Shown: in pieces, positions 18,533-59,323 of the stretch
Numbering within the stretch: the stretch's first letter is position 1
Layout: each line of letters begins with the position of its first letter
Source: Arthrobacter sp.
GTDB taxonomy: Bacteria > Actinomycetota > Actinomycetes > Actinomycetales > Micrococcaceae
Length of the DNA stretch: 64,000 bases
NCBI GenBank assembly: GCA_023264815.1
Contig: JAHFUZ010000002.1
Span: 124,001-188,000, forward strand
Direction of reading: 5' to 3'
Notes under the pieces: model-generated
Seen by the model: the letters and a program-made list of their open reading frames with translations, nothing else
Told to the model about the DNA's origin: nothing
Database searches by the model: none
Made by a program: the position numbers and the translations under genes

Positions 18533-18644
18533 GACATTGGGGAAAAGCGGAGGTTATGGTCGTTCAGTGGCCCGGTTCAAGCCGGACCATTCCCGTCAGT
18601 ATGCCGAGCCCTGCCGCTGACCCGGGACCCCAGCGCAATGCAAC

Positions 18645-18790
18645 TGGCAGGGACGGGGGAACCACGTTTCCACGGCTTCGCATGAGGCCTTGGGGTTAAG
18701 TCGCAAGCGTCCCGTCCTGCACGGCGTCGCTTTCGGCCGGGTATCTCCAGCCCGAACCCGACAGCTCACCCCGCAGGCATGGGAGAGGCG
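18645..18790 (+). ncRNA. ydaO/yuaA (c-di-AMP) riboswitch
   Basis: Hallmarks of the actinobacterial ydaO class appear in order: GACGGGGGAACCA near 18652, TTGGGGTTAAGTCGCAAG near 18690, a variable stem, then CCCGAACCCGACAGCTCACC followed by CCGCAGGC and GGGAGAGG immediately before the start codon. It controls the downstream secreted LysM/NlpC gene, a typical target class (rpf and wall hydrolases). The ribosome site GGGAGAGG is part of the terminal segment, so ligand could affect translation or termination. Boundaries are approximate. Confidence 0.88.
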
Positions 18791-18797
18791 ATCAACC

Positions 18798-19625
18798 ATG
18801 TCCAAGACTTTCACTGCTGCACGCCACCGTGCAGCCACCACCACGTCCCGCGCCCTGGCATTCGGGCGGCCCGCCCTCGTTGTCGCTGCCGCATCAGGCC
18901 TGTTTTTTGGCTTCAGCGCCCCGGCCCAGGCAGGCGTCCACATGCCTGACACCACAGGGACGGGCACCACCCAGGGGCAGGCCAGCGTACCGGCATCAGC
19001 TGCCGCCCCGGCTCCGGCCGGCGCCACGGCAGCAGCGGTGAACACCGTCCACACGGTGGTCTCCGGCGACACGCTCGGTGAGATCTCCAGCGCCTACGGC
19101 GTGGACCTGAACAACGTCCTGGCAGCCAACGGGCTGGCGCTGGCTTCGATCATCTACCCGGGTGACCAGCTCCGGATCCCCGGCGCCGGCCAGGCAGCAC
19201 CCATGGCACCCGCAGCGGCTCCGGCCCCGGCGGCCAAGACAGCCGCAGCCCCTGCTGATCCCGCCAACACCGGCATCAAGCTGGCATCAGCCCCGGCTCC
19301 GGCCCAGGCCCCGTCCGGCGCTGCCGGATCGGCCATCCTGGCCTCCGCCTACTCGCAGCTCGGCGTGCAGCAGGACTGCACAGCCATGGTGGAGAAGGCC
19401 CTGCGTTCGGTCGGCAAGAGTGTGGGCGACCTGGCCCCCGGCCAGTTCTTCCAGTACGGCAGCGTTGTTGGCACCCCAGCCCCGGGTGACCTGGTGATCA
19501 CCGCCGGACACGTCGGTGTCTTCGCCGGCAACGGCCAGGTGGTGAGCGGCGGCGTCAACGGGTTCAAGACCGAGGTCCACTCCCTGAGCTGGCTCCAGGG
19601 TGCTTCCTTCGTCCGCGTAGCGTGA
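18798..19625 (+). CDS. Secreted LysM and NlpC/P60-like cell-wall hydrolase
   Basis: 275 residues. A long signal peptide ends near APAQA (residues 41-45). A LysM domain spans about 82-128 (VHTVVSGDTLGEISSAYGV through IIYPGDQLRIP). An Ala/Pro linker precedes a C-terminal P60-like domain with candidate catalytic Cys194 (QQDCTAMVEKAL) and His238 (ITAGHVGVFAG). It probably cleaves peptidoglycan stem peptides. Expression is under the c-di-AMP riboswitch directly upstream; the GGGAGAGG ribosome site has a 9-base spacer to ATG 18798. It is divergent from another wall hydrolase. Confidence 0.88.
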   Translation: MSKTFTAARHRAATTTSRALAFGRPALVVAAASGLFFGFSAPAQAGVHMPDTTGTGTTQGQASVPASAAAPAPAGATAAAVNTVHTVVSGDTLGEISSAYGVDLNNVLAANGLALASIIYPGDQLRIPGAGQAAPMAPAAAPAPAAKTAAAPADPANTGIKLASAPAPAQAPSGAAGSAILASAYSQLGVQQDCTAMVEKALRSVGKSVGDLAPGQFFQYGSVVGTPAPGDLVITAGHVGVFAGNGQVVSGGVNGFKTEVHSLSWLQGASFVRVA

Positions 19626-19706: not shown

Positions 19707-20046
19707 TTAAACGTGCTGCCCGAACCAGGACAGCATGTCATTCCACGCGGCCGTCACCGGCGCCTGGTTATGGCGTTCCCCAGTGTCATTGTGCACGGCG
19801 TGGTCCACGCCCGGATGCACGGTGAGCTGATGCGTCACGCCAGCGGCGGCCAGGGCATCCCGGAGTGAGGGCATGGCCCCCGGGACCGGTCCGGCCGTGG
19901 CGGCGGTTGCCGTCGGTGAGGGTGCCGTGCGTCATGTCGCCGGCGCGGTAGTGGTCGAAGAATTCCTCGATCAGGTACCGTTCCAACTTTCCCGGCTGCA
20001 CCTGGAAACGGCGCCTAGAACTGTTCCGCCGGAATGGTGAAGCCAA
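19707..20046 (-). pseudogene. Dienelactone-hydrolase-family remnant (N- and C-terminal pieces only)
   Basis: On the minus strand an N-terminal-like piece (KLERYLIEEFFDHYRAGDMTHGTLT) is followed, after about position 19869 and in another frame, by a C-terminal piece. This has SLRDALAAAGVTHQL, then VHPGVDHAVHNDTGERHNQA, then AWNDMLSWFGQHV and a stop. The second matches the catalytic-His end of dienelactone hydrolases (HPGVDHAF-type). The nucleophile region is missing, so the gene is dead. It overlaps the end of the RibA-monooxygenase gene by about 30 bp. Confidence 0.75.
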
Positions 20047-21874
20047 GGTCCAGGAGTCCGCGGCCAGCCTGTTCCAGGATGGGGTCCATGGTCAGTGAGG
20101 CGTGGTTGAGGAGGACGTTGACATCGCGCTGGATCCGCTGGAGCGGGTGCGTCAGGCGGTGCACGCTGCCGCCTGATCCGGTCAGGATGAGCCGGACAGC
20201 CTCGGCTGAGGCCTGCCCGCTCAGGCCAAGGGAGAGCCGGTACTGTGCCCGCTCCCCATCAGTGAAGGCAACCGGCCGGCGCCCAAAGGACGCCGCCACC
20301 ACACGGACGGCTTCTTCCCAGTGCAGGCGCGCGGTGGCAACCTGGCCGTAGGCCTGGGTGAACCTTGCCTGGGCGAGCGGCGAGTCAGCCTGGCGCTTCT
20401 CCACGGTCTGCTTGACCTTGCGCACCATCAACAGCTTCCGGAACTCCTCCAGGGCGTATTCCGCGGCGCCCAATGCCGCTGCCGGGGCAACCATGTTCAG
20501 GAACGTGGCCATGGGGATGTGGATGCTGGGATCCGGGTGGATGAGGCTGCCGGGATTGTCGGCGGCAGCCAGGGCATCCCAGGCCAGGGCACGGTGCGCC
20601 GGGACGAAGAGGTTCTCGGCCCGGAGGTCATTGCTGCCGGTTCCACGCAAGCCGGCCGTATGCCAGACGTCCAGCAGCTCCAGCTCCGCCAGGGGTACCA
20701 GGCACTGAAGGCGGACACTGCCATGCTGAACGGCGAGCAGCGCCCAGTCCGAATGCATCACGCCGGAGGCGAAGCTCCAGCGGCCGGAGATGGCGAACCC
20801 GCCCGGGACCTGTTCCGCCGCACCCGGCGGAGCGCCCGTTGCGGCAGCCAGGGGGGCCGGGCCATCAGCGAAAACTTCGTCCTGGGCCTGCTGCGGCCAC
20901 CGGGCCAGCATCCACACGTGCTCCACGAGGTGTCCAACGCTCCAGGCGGTGGAGACACAGCCCTGGGCGAGGGTCCTGACCACCTGCACGTAGGTTTCGA
21001 GTCCCATCCCGAACCCGCCCACGGCCTTCGGCGCCAGCATCTGGAACACCCCGGCAGCCTTCAGTTCGGCCATGGTGGCGTCGGGAATGCGCCGGAGCTC
21101 TTCGGTCTCCCCTGCGCGCTCCCTCAGTCGGGGAACCAGGGCTTCCACCCGGGCCAGGATCTCGTCATGGCTCGGAACCGCGTCAGTAGTTGTTGGGCTG
21201 TCCACGGACGGGAGCTCGATGGTGTGGGCCGTGTGGGTTCGCTTGGCTGCAAGGTAGCGGAGGTTGGCCTCGGACAGATGTACGCCCGTGGGAACCTGCT
21301 CCGCCACATCCACGCCAAGGGCCGCCAACTGCCCCGCCTTGTCCGGGTTGTTGGTGAGGAGGCGGATCCGGCCGGCGCCGAGGGCGCCGAGCATCTGGGC
21401 CGCGGCCGTGTAGTCCCGCTCATCCTCGCCGCGCCCCAGCGCCACGTTGGCTTCATAGGTGTCCAGGCCGGTGTCCTGCAGGGCGTACGCATCAAGCTTG
21501 GAGTACAGTCCGATGCCGCGGCCCTCCTGGCGGAGGTACAGCAGGAAGCCCCCGACGGCGGCAATCTCCTCCACAGCCTCGCGCAGCTGGGGACCGCAGT
21601 CGCAGCGCTCGCTGCCAAACACGTCGCCGGTGAGGCATTCACTGTGCAGCCGGACGAGCGGTGCAGCCACCTCCGGGCCCTGGTCCAGGAGCGTCTGCTC
21701 CCACTGGCCCAGCCCAAGCAGGAGGTGCTCCTTGCCATCGGCCAGGCCGTGGAAGGTCATCACCTCGGCGGTGGCGCTGAAACCATCCGGGAACCGCAGC
21801 GGGACGGTAACCTGGCTGCGCACCGTGACAGGGTGTTCATATGGCCGCGCGACGGTCTCGGTCATAACGGTCAT
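20015..21874 (-). CDS. Fusion of GTP cyclohydrolase II (RibA) with acyl-CoA-dehydrogenase-type flavin monooxygenase
   Basis: A 619-residue protein of two enzymes. Residues 1 to about 215 are GTP cyclohydrolase II. The zinc cysteines are Cys80, Cys91 and Cys93 (HSECLTGDVFGSERCDCG) and the GTP loop is RQEGRGIGLYSK, all intact. After a linker (about 221-235), residues 236-619 have the acyl-CoA dehydrogenase/HpaB-HsaA-like fold of two-component flavin monooxygenases: AGVFQMLAPKAVGGFGMGLETYVQVVRTLAQGCVSTAW, the FAISGRWSFASGV strand and C-terminal helices. RibA makes the first riboflavin precursor, so the fusion links flavin supply to flavin use. GAGGAG sits five bases before ATG 21874. It is divergent from a MarR gene with shared operators. 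Confidence 0.88.
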   Translation of the reverse strand: MTVMTETVARPYEHPVTVRSQVTVPLRFPDGFSATAEVMTFHGLADGKEHLLLGLGQWEQTLLDQGPEVAAPLVRLHSECLTGDVFGSERCDCGPQLREAVEEIAAVGGFLLYLRQEGRGIGLYSKLDAYALQDTGLDTYEANVALGRGEDERDYTAAAQMLGALGAGRIRLLTNNPDKAGQLAALGVDVAEQVPTGVHLSEANLRYLAAKRTHTAHTIELPSVDSPTTTDAVPSHDEILARVEALVPRLRERAGETEELRRIPDATMAELKAAGVFQMLAPKAVGGFGMGLETYVQVVRTLAQGCVSTAWSVGHLVEHVWMLARWPQQAQDEVFADGPAPLAAATGAPPGAAEQVPGGFAISGRWSFASGVMHSDWALLAVQHGSVRLQCLVPLAELELLDVWHTAGLRGTGSNDLRAENLFVPAHRALAWDALAAADNPGSLIHPDPSIHIPMATFLNMVAPAAALGAAEYALEEFRKLLMVRKVKQTVEKRQADSPLAQARFTQAYGQVATARLHWEEAVRVVAASFGRRPVAFTDGERAQYRLSLGLSGQASAEAVRLILTGSGGSVHRLTHPLQRIQRDVNVLLNHASLTMDPILEQAGRGLLDLGFTIPAEQF

Positions 21875-21903: not shown

Positions 21904-21921
21904 TACTTGAATATTGAAGTA
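21904..21921. promoter_or_regulatory. Candidate MarR operator 1
   Basis: TACTTGAATATTGAAGTA is a near-perfect palindrome with one mismatched pair. It lies 30 bp upstream of the RibA-monooxygenase start, between it and the MarR gene. Confidence 0.65.
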
Positions 21922-21970: not shown

Positions 21971-21986
21971 ACTTCACTCTTGAAGT
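21971..21986. promoter_or_regulatory. Candidate MarR operator 2
   Basis: ACTTCA-CTCT-TGAAGT is a perfect inverted repeat sharing the TGAAGT half-site with operator 1. It is 20 bp before the MarR start codon, so it fits autoregulation. Confidence 0.7.
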
Positions 21987-22006: not shown

Positions 22007-22498
22007 ATGGAACCTGCCTCTGAACCGCGCTGGCTGAGCGCCGATGAACGCGAGGTCTGGCTGACCCTGGTGGGCGTCATGATGAAGTTGCCCGGCGCCC
22101 TGGACGCCCAGCTGCAGCGGGACGCAGGGCTGAGCCATTTTGAATACATGGTCCTGGCAGGCCTGTCTGAAGCCCCTGAACGGACCCGGCGGATGAGTGA
22201 CCTGGCGGGCTTCACGGAGTCCGGCCTGCCGCGCCTGTCACAGGTGGTGAGCCGGCTGGAAAAACGCGGCTGGGTCCGGCGTTCCACCGACCCCACCGAC
22301 GGACGCATCACCCTCGCAACGCTCACTGAGGAAGGCTGGGCGAAAATCGTCGATATCGCACCGGGGCACGTGGAGGCCGTCCGCGCCCTGGTCTTCGATC
22401 CCCTGACGAAGGCCCAGTCGCGCCAGCTCGGCAGCATCGGCAAACGCATCCTCAGCGTCCTGGACCCCGACGACTACTGCCTGCGCAGCGACGGGTAG
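22007..22498 (+). CDS. MarR-family transcriptional regulator
   Basis: 163 residues with a central winged helix. LSHFEYMVLAGLSEAPERTRRMSDLAGFTESGLPRLSQVVSRLEKRGWV is the recognition region, and the wing is DPTDGRITLATLT. It is divergent from the RibA-monooxygenase fusion. The two TGAAGT palindromes between them make repression of both genes, relieved by an aromatic or flavin-like ligand, the simplest model (inference). The conserved wing Asp-x-Arg is present. Confidence 0.92.
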   Translation: MEPASEPRWLSADEREVWLTLVGVMMKLPGALDAQLQRDAGLSHFEYMVLAGLSEAPERTRRMSDLAGFTESGLPRLSQVVSRLEKRGWVRRSTDPTDGRITLATLTEEGWAKIVDIAPGHVEAVRALVFDPLTKAQSRQLGSIGKRILSVLDPDDYCLRSDG

Positions 22499-56213: not shown

Positions 56214-56969
56214 TTAGGCTGTTGGCACACGGACCAGGTTGGCGCGGTGCTCGCTGGTGTTTTCGATGGTGAAGTTGGTCAGGCCCGGGATATACCTGTC
56301 ATCCGAGTACTCAATGGGCTCCCCGGCCGCGGATGATGTCAGGCGCCGTTCACGGAGCAGGGGGGCGCCGGGCTCCACTCCGAGCAATTCCACGTCATGC
56401 CCCTCAGCTGCTACGGCGTCGATGGTGTGCCGGCCCCGGCTCAGGTCGACGCCATGGCTTTTGAGGAAGCTGAAGATTGAGCCGCTGTCCGTATCGAAGT
56501 CGAACAGCAACCTGCCCACGTGAAGGACAAAGCTGGTCCGCTCCACCATGGCCGGGGCATTTTCGAGAAGGCGCAGGCGGAGGACCTCCACAACGGGCTC
56601 GCCGGCTTTGATGCCCAGCTGGGCTGCCACCTCGGGCGACGCCGGGCGGCGGGCGATTTCCCGGGTCTGCTGCCCCGGAGTCTTGCCAATGGATCCCGCC
56701 CATTCCGTGAAGGACATGAACGTGGTGAACGGCTGGGACAGCGCGGCCCGCCCGGCTACCGGCTGCTTGCCTTGCCCGCCTACGATGAGCCCCTCCGTAC
56801 GCAGTGTTGACAGGGCCTGCCGAACGGTTCCGCGGGAGGCCTCAAATTCCCTGCAAAGCTCTGCTTCGCTGGGAATCCGGAAACCCTCGGACCACAAGCC
56901 AGACGTGATGCGGGTACGAAGTTCGTCGGTCAGCCGCTGGTGGAGAGGCTGGGGCTGCGATGTAGACAT
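56214..56969 (-). CDS. GntR-family (HutC subfamily) regulator of the phosphonate cluster
   Basis: About 251 residues from ATG 56969. An N-terminal winged helix (LHQRLTDELRTRITSGLWSEGFRIPSEAELCREFEASRGTVRQALSTLRTEGLIV) is followed by a UTRA ligand-binding domain (about 85-245). The frame extends to ATG 56984, but that start would lie inside the operator-like palindrome. Two ACTTG...CAAGT palindromes flank the gene's promoter. The UTRA ligand may be a phosphonate, an amine or an intermediate (inference). Confidence 0.9.
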   Translation of the reverse strand: MSTSQPQPLHQRLTDELRTRITSGLWSEGFRIPSEAELCREFEASRGTVRQALSTLRTEGLIVGGQGKQPVAGRAALSQPFTTFMSFTEWAGSIGKTPGQQTREIARRPASPEVAAQLGIKAGEPVVEVLRLRLLENAPAMVERTSFVLHVGRLLFDFDTDSGSIFSFLKSHGVDLSRGRHTIDAVAAEGHDVELLGVEPGAPLLRERRLTSSAAGEPIEYSDDRYIPGLTNFTIENTSEHRANLVRVPTA

Positions 56970-56970
56970 G

Positions 56971-56986
56971 ACTTGATCATACAAGT
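56971..56986. promoter_or_regulatory. Candidate GntR operator 1
   Basis: ACTTGATCATACAAGT, an imperfect palindrome with ACTTG/CAAGT ends, adjoining the GntR start codon; fits autoregulation. Confidence 0.7.
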
Positions 56987-57069: not shown

Positions 57070-57085
57070 ACTTGTACATACAAGT
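57070..57085. promoter_or_regulatory. Candidate GntR operator 2
   Basis: ACTTGTA-CA-TACAAGT, perfect 7-bp arms with a 2-bp spacer, 49 bp upstream of the FAD oxidoreductase start. It shares the ACTTG/CAAGT arms of operator 1. Confidence 0.8.
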
Positions 57086-57133
57086 GCCGTTTGGGCTTGA
57101 TTGCGGGTGCGCCCGGCGGCCACGATCAATCCT

Positions 57134-58348
57134 GTGAATACCGAAATCCTTCAAACCCAAAGCGCCAGCGCCCTCCCCTCCTCCGTGGACGTGGTCGTGG
57201 TCGGGGCCGGCATCGTCGGGCTGGCCCACGCCGCCCTGGCCGCCGATCGCGGGCTCTCAGTGCTGGTCCTTGATCGTGACCACCGCGCAGTGGGCGCGTC
57301 CATCCGGAACTTCGGACACTGCTGCATCACCGCGCAGACCGGCGACTTGTATGAACTGGCCATCACCGGGCGCAAGCACTGGCTGGACTTCTCGGAGCGC
57401 GCCGGCTTCTGGGCCACTGAGTCCGGAGCCGTGGTGGTGGCGCGCACCGCAACGGAACTGCGTGTCCTTCAGGAACTGGCCGAACGCCGCGAACCCGGCC
57501 AGGTTGTTCTGCTGACTGCTGCGGAAACATCAGCCCGGCTCGGGCGGGCAACTGCACCGGCGGGACCGGGCACAACAGAACGTTCGCCCGTTACGGCACG
57601 TCCCGTCGTCGGCGGCGCGTGGCTGCGTGATGACCTCCGCGTCGATCCCAGGACAACGGTGGCGAGCCTCGCCGCCTGGCTGGATTCGTGTCCCGGCACA
57701 GCCGTCCGGTGGAACACCCCCGCGTTGGGCTTCGGCACGGGGACCGAACGGACCGCACTGGTCCGTACAAGCCGCGGCGATGTCCAGGCGGACCACGTGT
57801 TTGTGTGCGTGGGACACGATGTGGACCTGCTCTTCCCGGACCTCGCCGAGGGACACAAAATCGAGCGCTGTTCGCTCCAGATGGCCGCCGCGGCAGCTCC
57901 GGAGCGGTTGGATCTTCAGCCAGCCGTTCTGACCGCCACCTCCATGCTGCGCTACGGCGCTTTTGTGGAGATGCCGTCCGCGCCGGCTCTCCACGCCGAA
58001 GTCCAGGCACAGGACCCTGACCTCCTGACCATCGGGGCCAACGTGATGTTCACCCAGCGCCCTGACGGCACCCTGCTTCTCGGCGACTCCCACGCCTACC
58101 AAAAGACGGCAGACCCCTTCCTCGCCGAGACCACCACAGCACTCCTTCTGGAGCGGATCCAGGACGTCCTGGGTGTTGACAGCCTGGACATTACGGAACG
58201 CTGGCAAGGCATTTACGCCTCGTCCGAAGTGGGTCCGCTGTTGGTTGCCGGTGTCGCTCCCGGCGTCACGGCCGTGTCAGTCACCGCGGGAATCGGCATG
58301 ACCGTGTCATTTGGACTGGCAGCACGCAACGTCTCCGCCCTCCCATAA
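57134..58348 (+). CDS. FAD-dependent oxidoreductase of phosphonate clusters (TIGR03364-like)
   Basis: 404 residues from GTG 57134; the frame is open to 57101. A DAO-type FAD fold: VDVVVVGAGIVGLAHAALAADRG with the dinucleotide motif near the N terminus, RNFGHCCITAQTGDLYELA, and a C-terminal GIYASSEVGPLLVAGVAPGVTAVSVTAGIGMTVSFGLA. This resembles the oxidoreductase clade found beside phosphonatase-like hydrolases and phosphonate transporters. It probably oxidises a (possibly N-methylated) aminophosphonate to an aldehyde that the HAD enzyme cleaves. First gene of the rightward operon. Confidence 0.88.
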   Translation: MNTEILQTQSASALPSSVDVVVVGAGIVGLAHAALAADRGLSVLVLDRDHRAVGASIRNFGHCCITAQTGDLYELAITGRKHWLDFSERAGFWATESGAVVVARTATELRVLQELAERREPGQVVLLTAAETSARLGRATAPAGPGTTERSPVTARPVVGGAWLRDDLRVDPRTTVASLAAWLDSCPGTAVRWNTPALGFGTGTERTALVRTSRGDVQADHVFVCVGHDVDLLFPDLAEGHKIERCSLQMAAAAAPERLDLQPAVLTATSMLRYGAFVEMPSAPALHAEVQAQDPDLLTIGANVMFTQRPDGTLLLGDSHAYQKTADPFLAETTTALLLERIQDVLGVDSLDITERWQGIYASSEVGPLLVAGVAPGVTAVSVTAGIGMTVSFGLAARNVSALP

Positions 58349-58405: not shown

Positions 58406-59323
58406 ATGAAAACCCGTCACCTGGCCCTCATTCCGGCTGCCCTGCTGGCCGCCGTCGGACTCGCGTCCTGCTCCTCGCCTGAGGCACAGACCGCTTCCGC
58501 GAACACGCCCTCCCATTGCGCAGAAGGCCCCATCAAATTCGGCATTGAACCGTTCGAAGACCCCACCAAGCTCGAGCCTGCCTACCGTGTCCTGGCGGAC
58601 GCCATGGAGGAACGGCTCGGATGCGAGGTGGAGGTCCAGGTGGTGGAGGACTACTCCGCAGAGGTGCTCGCCATGGCCAATAACCGCCTGGACATCGGGC
58701 AGTTCGGACCCATGGGCTATGTCTTCGCCAGCACCAAGGCGGGAGCCGAGCCCATTGCCTCGTTTGGAACCGCCGAGGGCAAACTCAGCACCTACACCGC
58801 AGGCATCTGGGTGGCCAAGGACTCCGCCATCCGGTCCATCACCGACCTTAAGGGCAAGGACGTGGCACTGGGCAGCATCGGCTCCACGTCCGGCGATGTC
58901 CTCCCCCGCTACGGCCTTAAGAAGGCAGGCATCAGCGAATCGGACCTGGACATCAGCTACTCGGGCGGGCACCCCGAAGCACTCCTGGCCCTGGCCAACG
59001 GGACGGTGGACGCCGCACAGATCAACTCCCAGACCCTCGCCTCGGCCACCGCCGCCGGCACGTTCAAGGCTGAAGACTTCCGGCAGATCTGGACCTCGGA
59101 AGCCATCCCCAACGATCCCATCACCATCCGTGGCAATGCCGATCCAGCCCTCAAGGAAGCCGTCCGCGACGCACTCGTGAACCTCCCCGCAGGGGCCATC
59201 GAAAAGGTGGGCGCCTTCCTGGATGTCACGCCGCCGGGCCCGCTGCTGCCCGTCACCAAGGAGACCTACCAGCCGTTGTTCGACCTCGCCGCCACCATGG
59301 GACTCACCGAGGAAGACCTGTGA
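58406..59323 (+). CDS. phnD: Phosphonate/phosphite ABC transporter substrate-binding lipoprotein
   Basis: 305 residues. A lipoprotein signal has Cys22 (VGLASCSS). The mature PhnD-like fold has IKFGIEPFEDPTKLEPAYRVLADAMEERLGCEVEVQVVEDYSAEVLAM, the LDIGQFGPMGYVFASTKAG anion loop, and DLKGKDVALGSIGSTSGDVLPRYGLKKAG. It captures a phosphonate, phosphite or related ligand outside the membrane. The next gene's GTG overlaps its stop, as part of a phnDCE unit. Confidence 0.92.
   Translation: MKTRHLALIPAALLAAVGLASCSSPEAQTASANTPSHCAEGPIKFGIEPFEDPTKLEPAYRVLADAMEERLGCEVEVQVVEDYSAEVLAMANNRLDIGQFGPMGYVFASTKAGAEPIASFGTAEGKLSTYTAGIWVAKDSAIRSITDLKGKDVALGSIGSTSGDVLPRYGLKKAGISESDLDISYSGGHPEALLALANGTVDAAQINSQTLASATAAGTFKAEDFRQIWTSEAIPNDPITIRGNADPALKEAVRDALVNLPAGAIEKVGAFLDVTPPGPLLPVTKETYQPLFDLAATMGLTEEDL

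Follow-up and report, generated by a model that had tools for sequence, protein, structure and literature searches.

The 64,000-nucleotide stretch of DNA analysed here (hereafter the window; Arthrobacter sp., GenBank assembly GCA_023264815.1, contig JAHFUZ010000002.1, positions 124,001 to 188,000 of the forward strand) carries on its minus strand, at 20015-21874, a gene that joins a flavin-synthesis enzyme to a probably flavin-dependent oxygenase. The gene is an uninterrupted open reading frame of 619 amino acids, from an ATG start to a TAG stop, and sequence comparison confirms its predicted product as a complete RibA (GTP cyclohydrolase II) joined at its C-terminal end to a monooxygenase of the acyl-CoA-dehydrogenase fold nearest to HsaA, which bears out an earlier note made from the letters of the window. 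The RibA half comprises amino acids 16-222 (21209-21829), a linker whose length is unequal among relatives amino acids 223-235 (21170-21208), and the predicted group-D flavin monooxygenase half amino acids 236-612 (20039-21169), all on the minus strand. Facing the fusion across a gap of 132 bp is a plus-strand gene at 22007-22498 for a MarR-family regulator of 163 amino acids (PF12802, 36.0 bits with a cut-off of 27; PF01047, 33.1 bits with a cut-off of 24.6), and the gap holds two 16-bp TGAAGT palindromes, an arrangement that the same note had also pointed out.

The RibA half is recognised by the Pfam family GTP_cyclohydro2 (PF00925; amino acids 34-195, 179.2 bits, cut-off 23.3) and by the NCBIfam RibA model NF001591 (248.2 bits, cut-off 148), and its nearest PDB sequences, RibBA 4i14 and E. 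coli RibA 2bz0, align with it over the whole domain. In the alignment to 2bz0, Arg128 of the E. coli enzyme corresponds to R153, Asp126 to D151 and Tyr105 to Y130, the last two being positions that we take to be functional. The zinc motif CX2GX7CXC is present as C80, G83, C91 and C93 (21596-21637, minus strand), where the motif, like the role of Arg128 in GTP cyclohydrolase II, is as given in the relevant passages of PMC10366380. The three zinc cysteines, Y130, D151 and R153 are invariant in all 57 aligned RibA sequences, the housekeeping copy included, and three further positions that were inspected each deviate in one sequence of the 57; rows with stops or shorter than about 190 amino acids were left out of this alignment and of the RibA tree described below. 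The cysteines had been read as intact from the window alone, and an inactive RibA half, which the earlier note had considered as a possible flaw in its reading, is not what these residues suggest.

For the second half, Pfam reports Acyl-CoA_dh_N at amino acids 237-333 and Acyl-CoA_dh_2 at 464-594, and the nearest PDB sequences are the HsaA-type hydroxylases 2rfq and 3afe, XiaF (5lvu) and HPAH C2 (2jbr). An AlphaFold model, mediocre in quality (16 sequences, mean pLDDT 67.8) and used for the fold search alone, matched HsaA-type chains in Foldseek with probability 1.00 and target TM-scores of 0.74-0.79, and identity to HsaA in the structure alignment is 28-30%. The equivalog model NF045629 for HsaA, an enzyme of steroid catabolism, gives 232.3 bits against a cut-off of 450, so that the oxygenase is of the same kind as HsaA, as had been proposed, without being HsaA itself; the HPAH oxygenase model NF045920 gives 180.9 bits against a cut-off of 650, and by these equivalog cut-offs both identities were ruled out. 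H319, S370 and H591 align with His120, Ser171 and His396 of A. baumannii HPAH C2, and the two histidines are invariant in 16 of 16 oxygenase sequences, but the position of Ser146 is occupied by Ala and that of Arg263 by Ala or Gly. PMC10696468 and PMC10537072 describe His120 as a stabiliser of the phenolate and Arg263 as the residue to which the carboxylate of 4-hydroxyphenylacetate binds; replacement of Ser146 by Ala (S146A) slows the enzyme down, and protonation of the flavin intermediate may be the task of His396. Because the first three residues are kept and the other two are changed, the pattern suggests a phenol-type hydroxylase with a substrate other than 4-hydroxyphenylacetate.

The two palindromes have the appearance of operators. 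Palindrome 1 (21905-21920) begins 46 bp before the fusion start and has 6-bp arms with one mismatch; palindrome 2 (21971-21986) is perfect and lies 66 bp (2 x 33) from it. The pattern occurs in the 4.18-Mb genome at both window sites and nowhere else, with 0 hits for the reversed control, a uniqueness that is partly due to construction, since the pattern was derived from the window itself, with the reversed control and shuffles as a safeguard. Across 38 fetched loci of the genus, an operator-like site with at most two mismatches lies within 200 bp of the start in 34 (shuffled mean 0.06, maximum 1), that is, in 13 of 13 loci with an adjacent MarR gene and in 21 of 25 without, some of the latter sites being degenerate (L047-L049, L051), and in relatives the sites repeat in a 33-bp register. 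Genes outside the window were called with our own codon-usage caller, which missed some, such as the MarR gene in L022. With two mismatches allowed, no operator-like site was found at L038, L054, L055 or L057; L055 belongs to the sister clade introduced below, and the start of L057 is misplaced, the locus being partial.

The housekeeping ribD-ribE-ribB-ribA-ribH operon of the same genome stands behind a flavin mononucleotide (FMN) riboswitch (97.5 bits), whereas the window, like 20 fused loci taken with 1.5-kb flanks, gave no FMN riboswitch hit. A c-di-AMP riboswitch (RF00379, 48.9 bits) is present in the window at 18622-18794 on the plus strand, at the start of a gene, ending at 19625, whose product is a LysM protein that matches NlpC/P60 weakly. 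The window also contains a further pair of palindromes, at 56971-56986 and 57070-57085 and 99 bp apart, near a GntR-like gene (56214-56984, minus strand), a FAD-dependent oxidoreductase-like gene (57101-58348, plus strand) and a phosphonate-binding-like lipoprotein gene (58406-59323, plus strand), all named by eye; this pair was set aside for its GntR-like neighbour and its different core.

A search for the exact domain pair and its neighbours, as the earlier note had recommended, showed that the fusion is a recurrent feature of the genus. Among 101 genus genomes, drawn evenly from a larger group, no other state is as common as an intact fusion in a single open frame (24 genomes, including G014, where a first listing gave two pieces and a re-reading one 644-amino acid gene). 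The halves are adjacent separate genes in four genomes (G081, G068, G063, G039), the fusion is frame-broken or decayed in another four (G095, G029, G084, G080), RibA is shortened in G082, G013 and G021 are partial, and the RibA of G090 belongs to the sister clade. A scan of named genomes, which relied on two peptide patterns, gave 61 loci: 15 come from other bacteria and reach no more than 39% identity, and the remaining 46, with identities of at least 58%, carry the titles Arthrobacter, Pseudarthrobacter, Paenarthrobacter or Micrococcaceae throughout; by our gene caller the fusion is intact in 35 of these 46, a set that overlaps with the 101 genomes. Of 149 genomes drawn from the family, four match at 1e-60 and all four belong to the genus; among 394 drawn from the class, the best match beyond the genus was 39% identical. 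Given a class-wide oxygenase search that scored at most four candidates per genome, no member of the oxygenase clade turned up outside this genus among the genomes sampled. The RibA half is matched at 1e-60 or better in 29 of 296 class genomes, 26 of them outside the genus and at 60-76% identity.

In a maximum-likelihood RibA tree of 56 rows, 34 fused, split, broken and lone sequences form one clade (support 100/99), which is sister to four stand-alone RibA (L149, L150, L151, L055). A topology that groups fused and broken sequences apart from split and lone ones was weakly rejected (p-AU 0.03) in a test framed after inspection of an earlier FastTree. Since the separate-gene copies nest within the fused clade, they look like later fissions, and one fusion followed by fissions and losses would be the simplest history. 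In the 28 loci compared, all with both halves, RibA and oxygenase distances are correlated (r 0.74, a value reached in 0 of 2000 permutations), and the ratios of nonsynonymous to synonymous substitution rates (dN/dS) of 19 close pairs from four groups, 0.02-0.18 for RibA and 0.07-0.20 for the oxygenase, show purifying selection on both halves. The fusion is retained where the oxygenase half has diverged to about 61% identity and is located in several unrelated neighbourhoods, and no partner gene beside it is common to most of the 38 fetched loci. The earlier note had allowed that relatives might carry two separate genes and that the frame might be an artefact of assembly; separate genes do exist, in the nested position just described. 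An artefact of assembly or frame, or a dead RibA half, is hardly conceivable: a frameshift, decay or truncation is seen in a few loci (the four broken genomes and G082), but these stand against a single intact frame in 24 genomes and 35 named-assembly loci, invariant RibA key residues and dN/dS well below 1, and for the window locus the relatives refute the artefact as far as sequence can.

L060, on plasmid pCZY of Paenarthrobacter ureafaciens, typed as conjugative and from a nicotine environment, carries a RibA gene of the fused clade on its own, 76% identical and adjoining a LysR regulator gene. In L047-L049, L088, L092 and L103, split RibA and oxygenase genes lie after an IclR regulator gene and before a gene of about 273 amino acids, which in L048 encodes a Cof-type HAD phosphatase; this phosphatase scores 84.9 on a model of YcsE-related riboflavin phosphatases with a cut-off of 220 and was left unused. 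L047-L049 either lack MarR-type palindromes or have them in degenerate form.

The palindromes at the fusion appear to belong to a wider operator family. MarR paralogs with 63-73% identity to the window's regulator occur at seven places in the 101 genomes, with palindromes 33-34 bp apart at all seven; a DoxX-like gene adjoins in six of them and a LigB-type dioxygenase gene comes next in four (assigned by Pfam at L175 and by similarity at the remaining loci). MarR relatives, for the most part about 50% identical, are present in 99 of the 101 genomes. A relaxed pattern that allows two mismatches finds 26 sites in the window's own genome; two are those at the fusion, and the surroundings of 18 more were read, leaving six. 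While six of the 18 fall within genes, others precede a gene of the VOC/glyoxalase-dioxygenase superfamily and a luciferase-like monooxygenase gene (one mismatch each), an F420_oxidored-family gene (a pair with 33-bp spacing and two mismatches in each site), a nitroreductase-family gene (two mismatches) and the genome's own copy of the 50% MarR paralog. Two of the 18 are the pair by the GntR-like gene in the window. The VOC site is repeated in all five relatives in which the locus was read, with the identical 16 bases in two more, and the luciferase-like site in two of seven; three of 16 fetched sites in relatives (L210, L212, L214) have no tested gene beside them. In L176 the DoxX-LigB genes are followed by a gene whose product is related to the F420_oxidored protein (43% identity). 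By analogy with the MhqR and YodB regulons of Bacillus, the operator family seems to serve a response to compounds of an aromatic or quinone-like kind.

Outside the genus, 20 stand-alone RibA loci were fetched. In L149 and L151, RibA and MarR genes are adjacent on the same strand, with MarR products 45% and 37% identical to that of the window, and in L158 and L160-L164 a MarR gene (44-50% identity) lies near RibA together with an adjoining gene of 375-383 amino acids, which in L158, the one scanned, encodes RibD_C plus a deaminase. A RibA similar to this type also occurs on named Streptomyces plasmids. Palindromes with the same core, three mismatches and a spacing of 43-45 bp precede RibA in L158, L160-L162, L164 and L165; L163 has one palindrome, L149 and L150 have one each with two mismatches, and in L151 no such palindrome was found before RibA. 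The RibD-like protein of L158 (7404-8531 of that locus, plus strand), beside MarR and a RibA related to that of the fusion, has a reversed domain order, with the reductase before the deaminase. Another group (L152-L157, L159, L168) was assembled by gene sizes, with L157 scanned and L159 scanned in part: the genes before RibA in L157 match RibD_C, a methyltransferase, a glycosyltransferase, PTPS and, weakly, a dehydrogenase, and RibD_C and PTPS were confirmed in L159. This gene group, which occurs in other actinomycetes, has the look of a pathway that turns GTP into a glycosylated pterin or pyrimidine, and we know of no characterised match to it. The RibD-like reductase of L158 shares 52-56% identity with those of L157 and L159, and the reductases of these loci are 28-29% identical to housekeeping RibD (29% for L158). 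A RibD_C protein also adjoins the fusion in seven of the 38 genus loci; these neighbours are of two types, 32-39% alike and without similarity at 1e-3 to the L158 or L157/L159 groups, and in four of the five loci with an upstream RibD_C gene, operator-like sites separate it from the fusion. RibD_C as an operon partner was treated as weak on these grounds.

Together, these data lead to a reading to which we would give about an even chance, namely that the gene provides, from one promoter under MarR induction, both an aromatic hydroxylase and a riboswitch-free entry of GTP into flavin synthesis. An aromatic or quinone-like inducer would probably lift the gene's own MarR repressor off the paired palindromes; the N-terminal half would open GTP to DARPP, the first flavin precursor, which would join the housekeeping RibD/E/H route; and the C-terminal half, with reduced flavin from a separate reductase, would hydroxylate an aromatic, probably phenolic, compound. 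Expression from a single gene would supply one unit of flavin-synthesis entry per unit of flavin-using oxygenase and would by-pass the riboswitch that stands before the housekeeping rib operon. Since DARPP is a precursor and not yet a flavin, any gain would come from co-expression or proximity and not from direct hand-over. Of the two explanations offered in the earlier note, local flavin supply for a catabolic oxygenase and a specialised pathway that starts from GTP, we favour the former, in an inducible form, because the FMN riboswitch is found at the housekeeping operon and not at the fusion, because operator-like sites of the same family also precede dioxygenase-type and flavin-oxygenase genes, and because several outside relatives of RibA stand alone beside a related MarR gene; the latter is retained as an unlikely rival.

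Several observations weigh against the favoured reading. The RibA half scores 174.3 on TIGR00505 (ribA), under the cut-off of 205.85, and the Ser146 and Arg263 positions of the oxygenase are altered as noted above. No flavin reductase gene was found in the window, and the genome's three Flavin_Reduct (PF01613) genes are on other contigs; a flavin reductase gene lies within 1.3 kb of the fusion in three of the 38 fetched loci, always with intervening predicted genes, which we consider weak, and near the fusion in some named-assembly loci. As a reductase can act in trans, the assignment of a group-D mode of action would stand despite this. G087 and G082 keep the oxygenase although they lack an intact RibA, and G086 and G099 have RibA but no oxygenase, so that the pairing seems dispensable. 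The 26 relaxed operator sites compare with eight in the reversed control, the intergenic sites at L190, L192, L196 and L198 adjoin genes that are off-theme or unscanned and are not claimed, and several MarR paralogs go together with one operator type. Lastly, the LigB-type gene adjoins the fusion itself in five loci of one neighbourhood, which amount to one event; LigB was on this account dropped as a recurrent fusion partner, and the independent link between the two runs via the MarR paralogs.

It may alternatively be that nothing links the two enzymes functionally and that two useful genes under one MarR promoter fused and stayed fused through co-expression, as the adjacent separate halves in four of the 101 genomes, the lone halves in others and the variable linker length would allow; we regard this as fairly improbable, though it deserves some weight, in view of the fusion being the commonest state and kept down to about 61% oxygenase identity, of the low dN/dS of both halves in close pairs and of the several unrelated neighbourhoods. 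The pathway from GTP, in which the oxygenase would act on DARPP or a close descendant to give an oxidised pyrimidine or pterin-like product, is still considered because other RibA relatives stand in RibD-like or PTPS/glycosyltransferase groups (MarR with a RibD-like gene in L158; RibD_C, methyltransferase, glycosyltransferase and PTPS in L157 and partly in L159), whose reductases resemble each other more than housekeeping RibD, and RibD_C does adjoin the fusion in seven of the 38 genus loci. Such partners are, however, absent from L149 and L151, the nearest outside relatives that adjoin MarR; the genus RibD_C neighbours are unlike those groups, are of two types and are mostly set apart from the fusion by operator-like sites, no partner recurs by the fusion in most loci, and the oxygenase keeps the histidines of a phenol hydroxylase. 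The stricter form of this idea, in which the halves would catalyse consecutive steps, DARPP or a close descendant being oxygenated before it leaves, within an undescribed MarR-induced route that would begin with GTP and end in an oxidised pyrimidine or a pterin-like metabolite, strikes us as rather doubtful. The halves might also be linked as independent defences against the same stress, RibA removing oxidised GTP and the oxygenase detoxifying an aromatic compound. This is in line with the passages of PMC6092379 in which E. coli GTP cyclohydrolase II hydrolyses 8-oxo-dGTP and its gene is induced by superoxide generators, and with an operator family that points to redox or aromatic stress, but the residues checked are those of a standard GTP cyclohydrolase II, with no feature specific to oxidised nucleotides seen among them, and we think it distinctly improbable.

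If flavin supply drives the fusion, a cofactor-making and a cofactor-using enzyme would be combined in one chain and a compound-sensing repressor would take the place of the FMN riboswitch. One could then test whether a cell steps up its flavin synthesis when a single oxygenase calls for it, and the gene would lend itself to biocatalysis with hydroxylases that need much flavin. That several groups of actinomycetes have RibA paralogs next to MarR genes likewise bears on a tie between flavin supply and chemical stress.

Compared with E. coli RibA (2bz0) and RibBA (4i14), the fusion has the whole domain, the zinc motif and the Arg128, Asp126 and Tyr105 positions, and it differs in the added oxygenase, the MarR-type palindromes and the lack of an FMN riboswitch match; whereas E. 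coli has a single RibA, the one described here is a second copy beside a complete ribDEBAH operon in the genome. With HsaA (3-HSA hydroxylase; 2rfq, 3afe), XiaF and Acinetobacter HPAH C2 it shares the fold, the sequence family and His120/Ser171/His396, but it scores far below the equivalog cut-offs, has changes at Ser146 and Arg263 and has no reductase gene in the window. In the MhqR, YodB and CatR quinone regulons of Bacillus, a MarR-type or related repressor governs DoxX-like, dioxygenase-like and nitroreductase genes, which is the same type of repressor and the same kinds of genes in other proteins and another organism; we know of no RibA-oxygenase in those regulons. Nor, to our knowledge, is a MarR regulator part of the linkage between lux and rib genes in Photobacterium. 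As described in the excerpt of PMC10049116, riboflavin genes, ribA among them, are placed there with a flavin-consuming monooxygenase, as in the fusion, but as separate genes, with several rib genes and with luciferase as the monooxygenase. E. coli ribA, within the SoxRS regulon (PMC6092379), is a RibA gene under redox-stress control, with another regulator and, in the passages on that regulon, no fusion. Both this case and the lux linkage may be taken as precedents for the favoured reading. M. tuberculosis Rv1940 is, like the fusion, a second annotated ribA in an actinomycete, and it is reported as not functional in the part of PMC12855090 concerned with it, whereas the fusion keeps the key residues. 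In the open-licence PubMed Central literature, no description was found of a RibA-oxygenase fusion or of a MarR-controlled, riboswitch-free RibA, in agreement with the earlier note, which had known of no characterised example. A paper on a riboflavin formamidase (PMC9478397) proved to have no bearing here. Each part is known in kind from these systems, and what seems new is the fusion itself, together with a RibA that appears to be under MarR-type control without a riboswitch.

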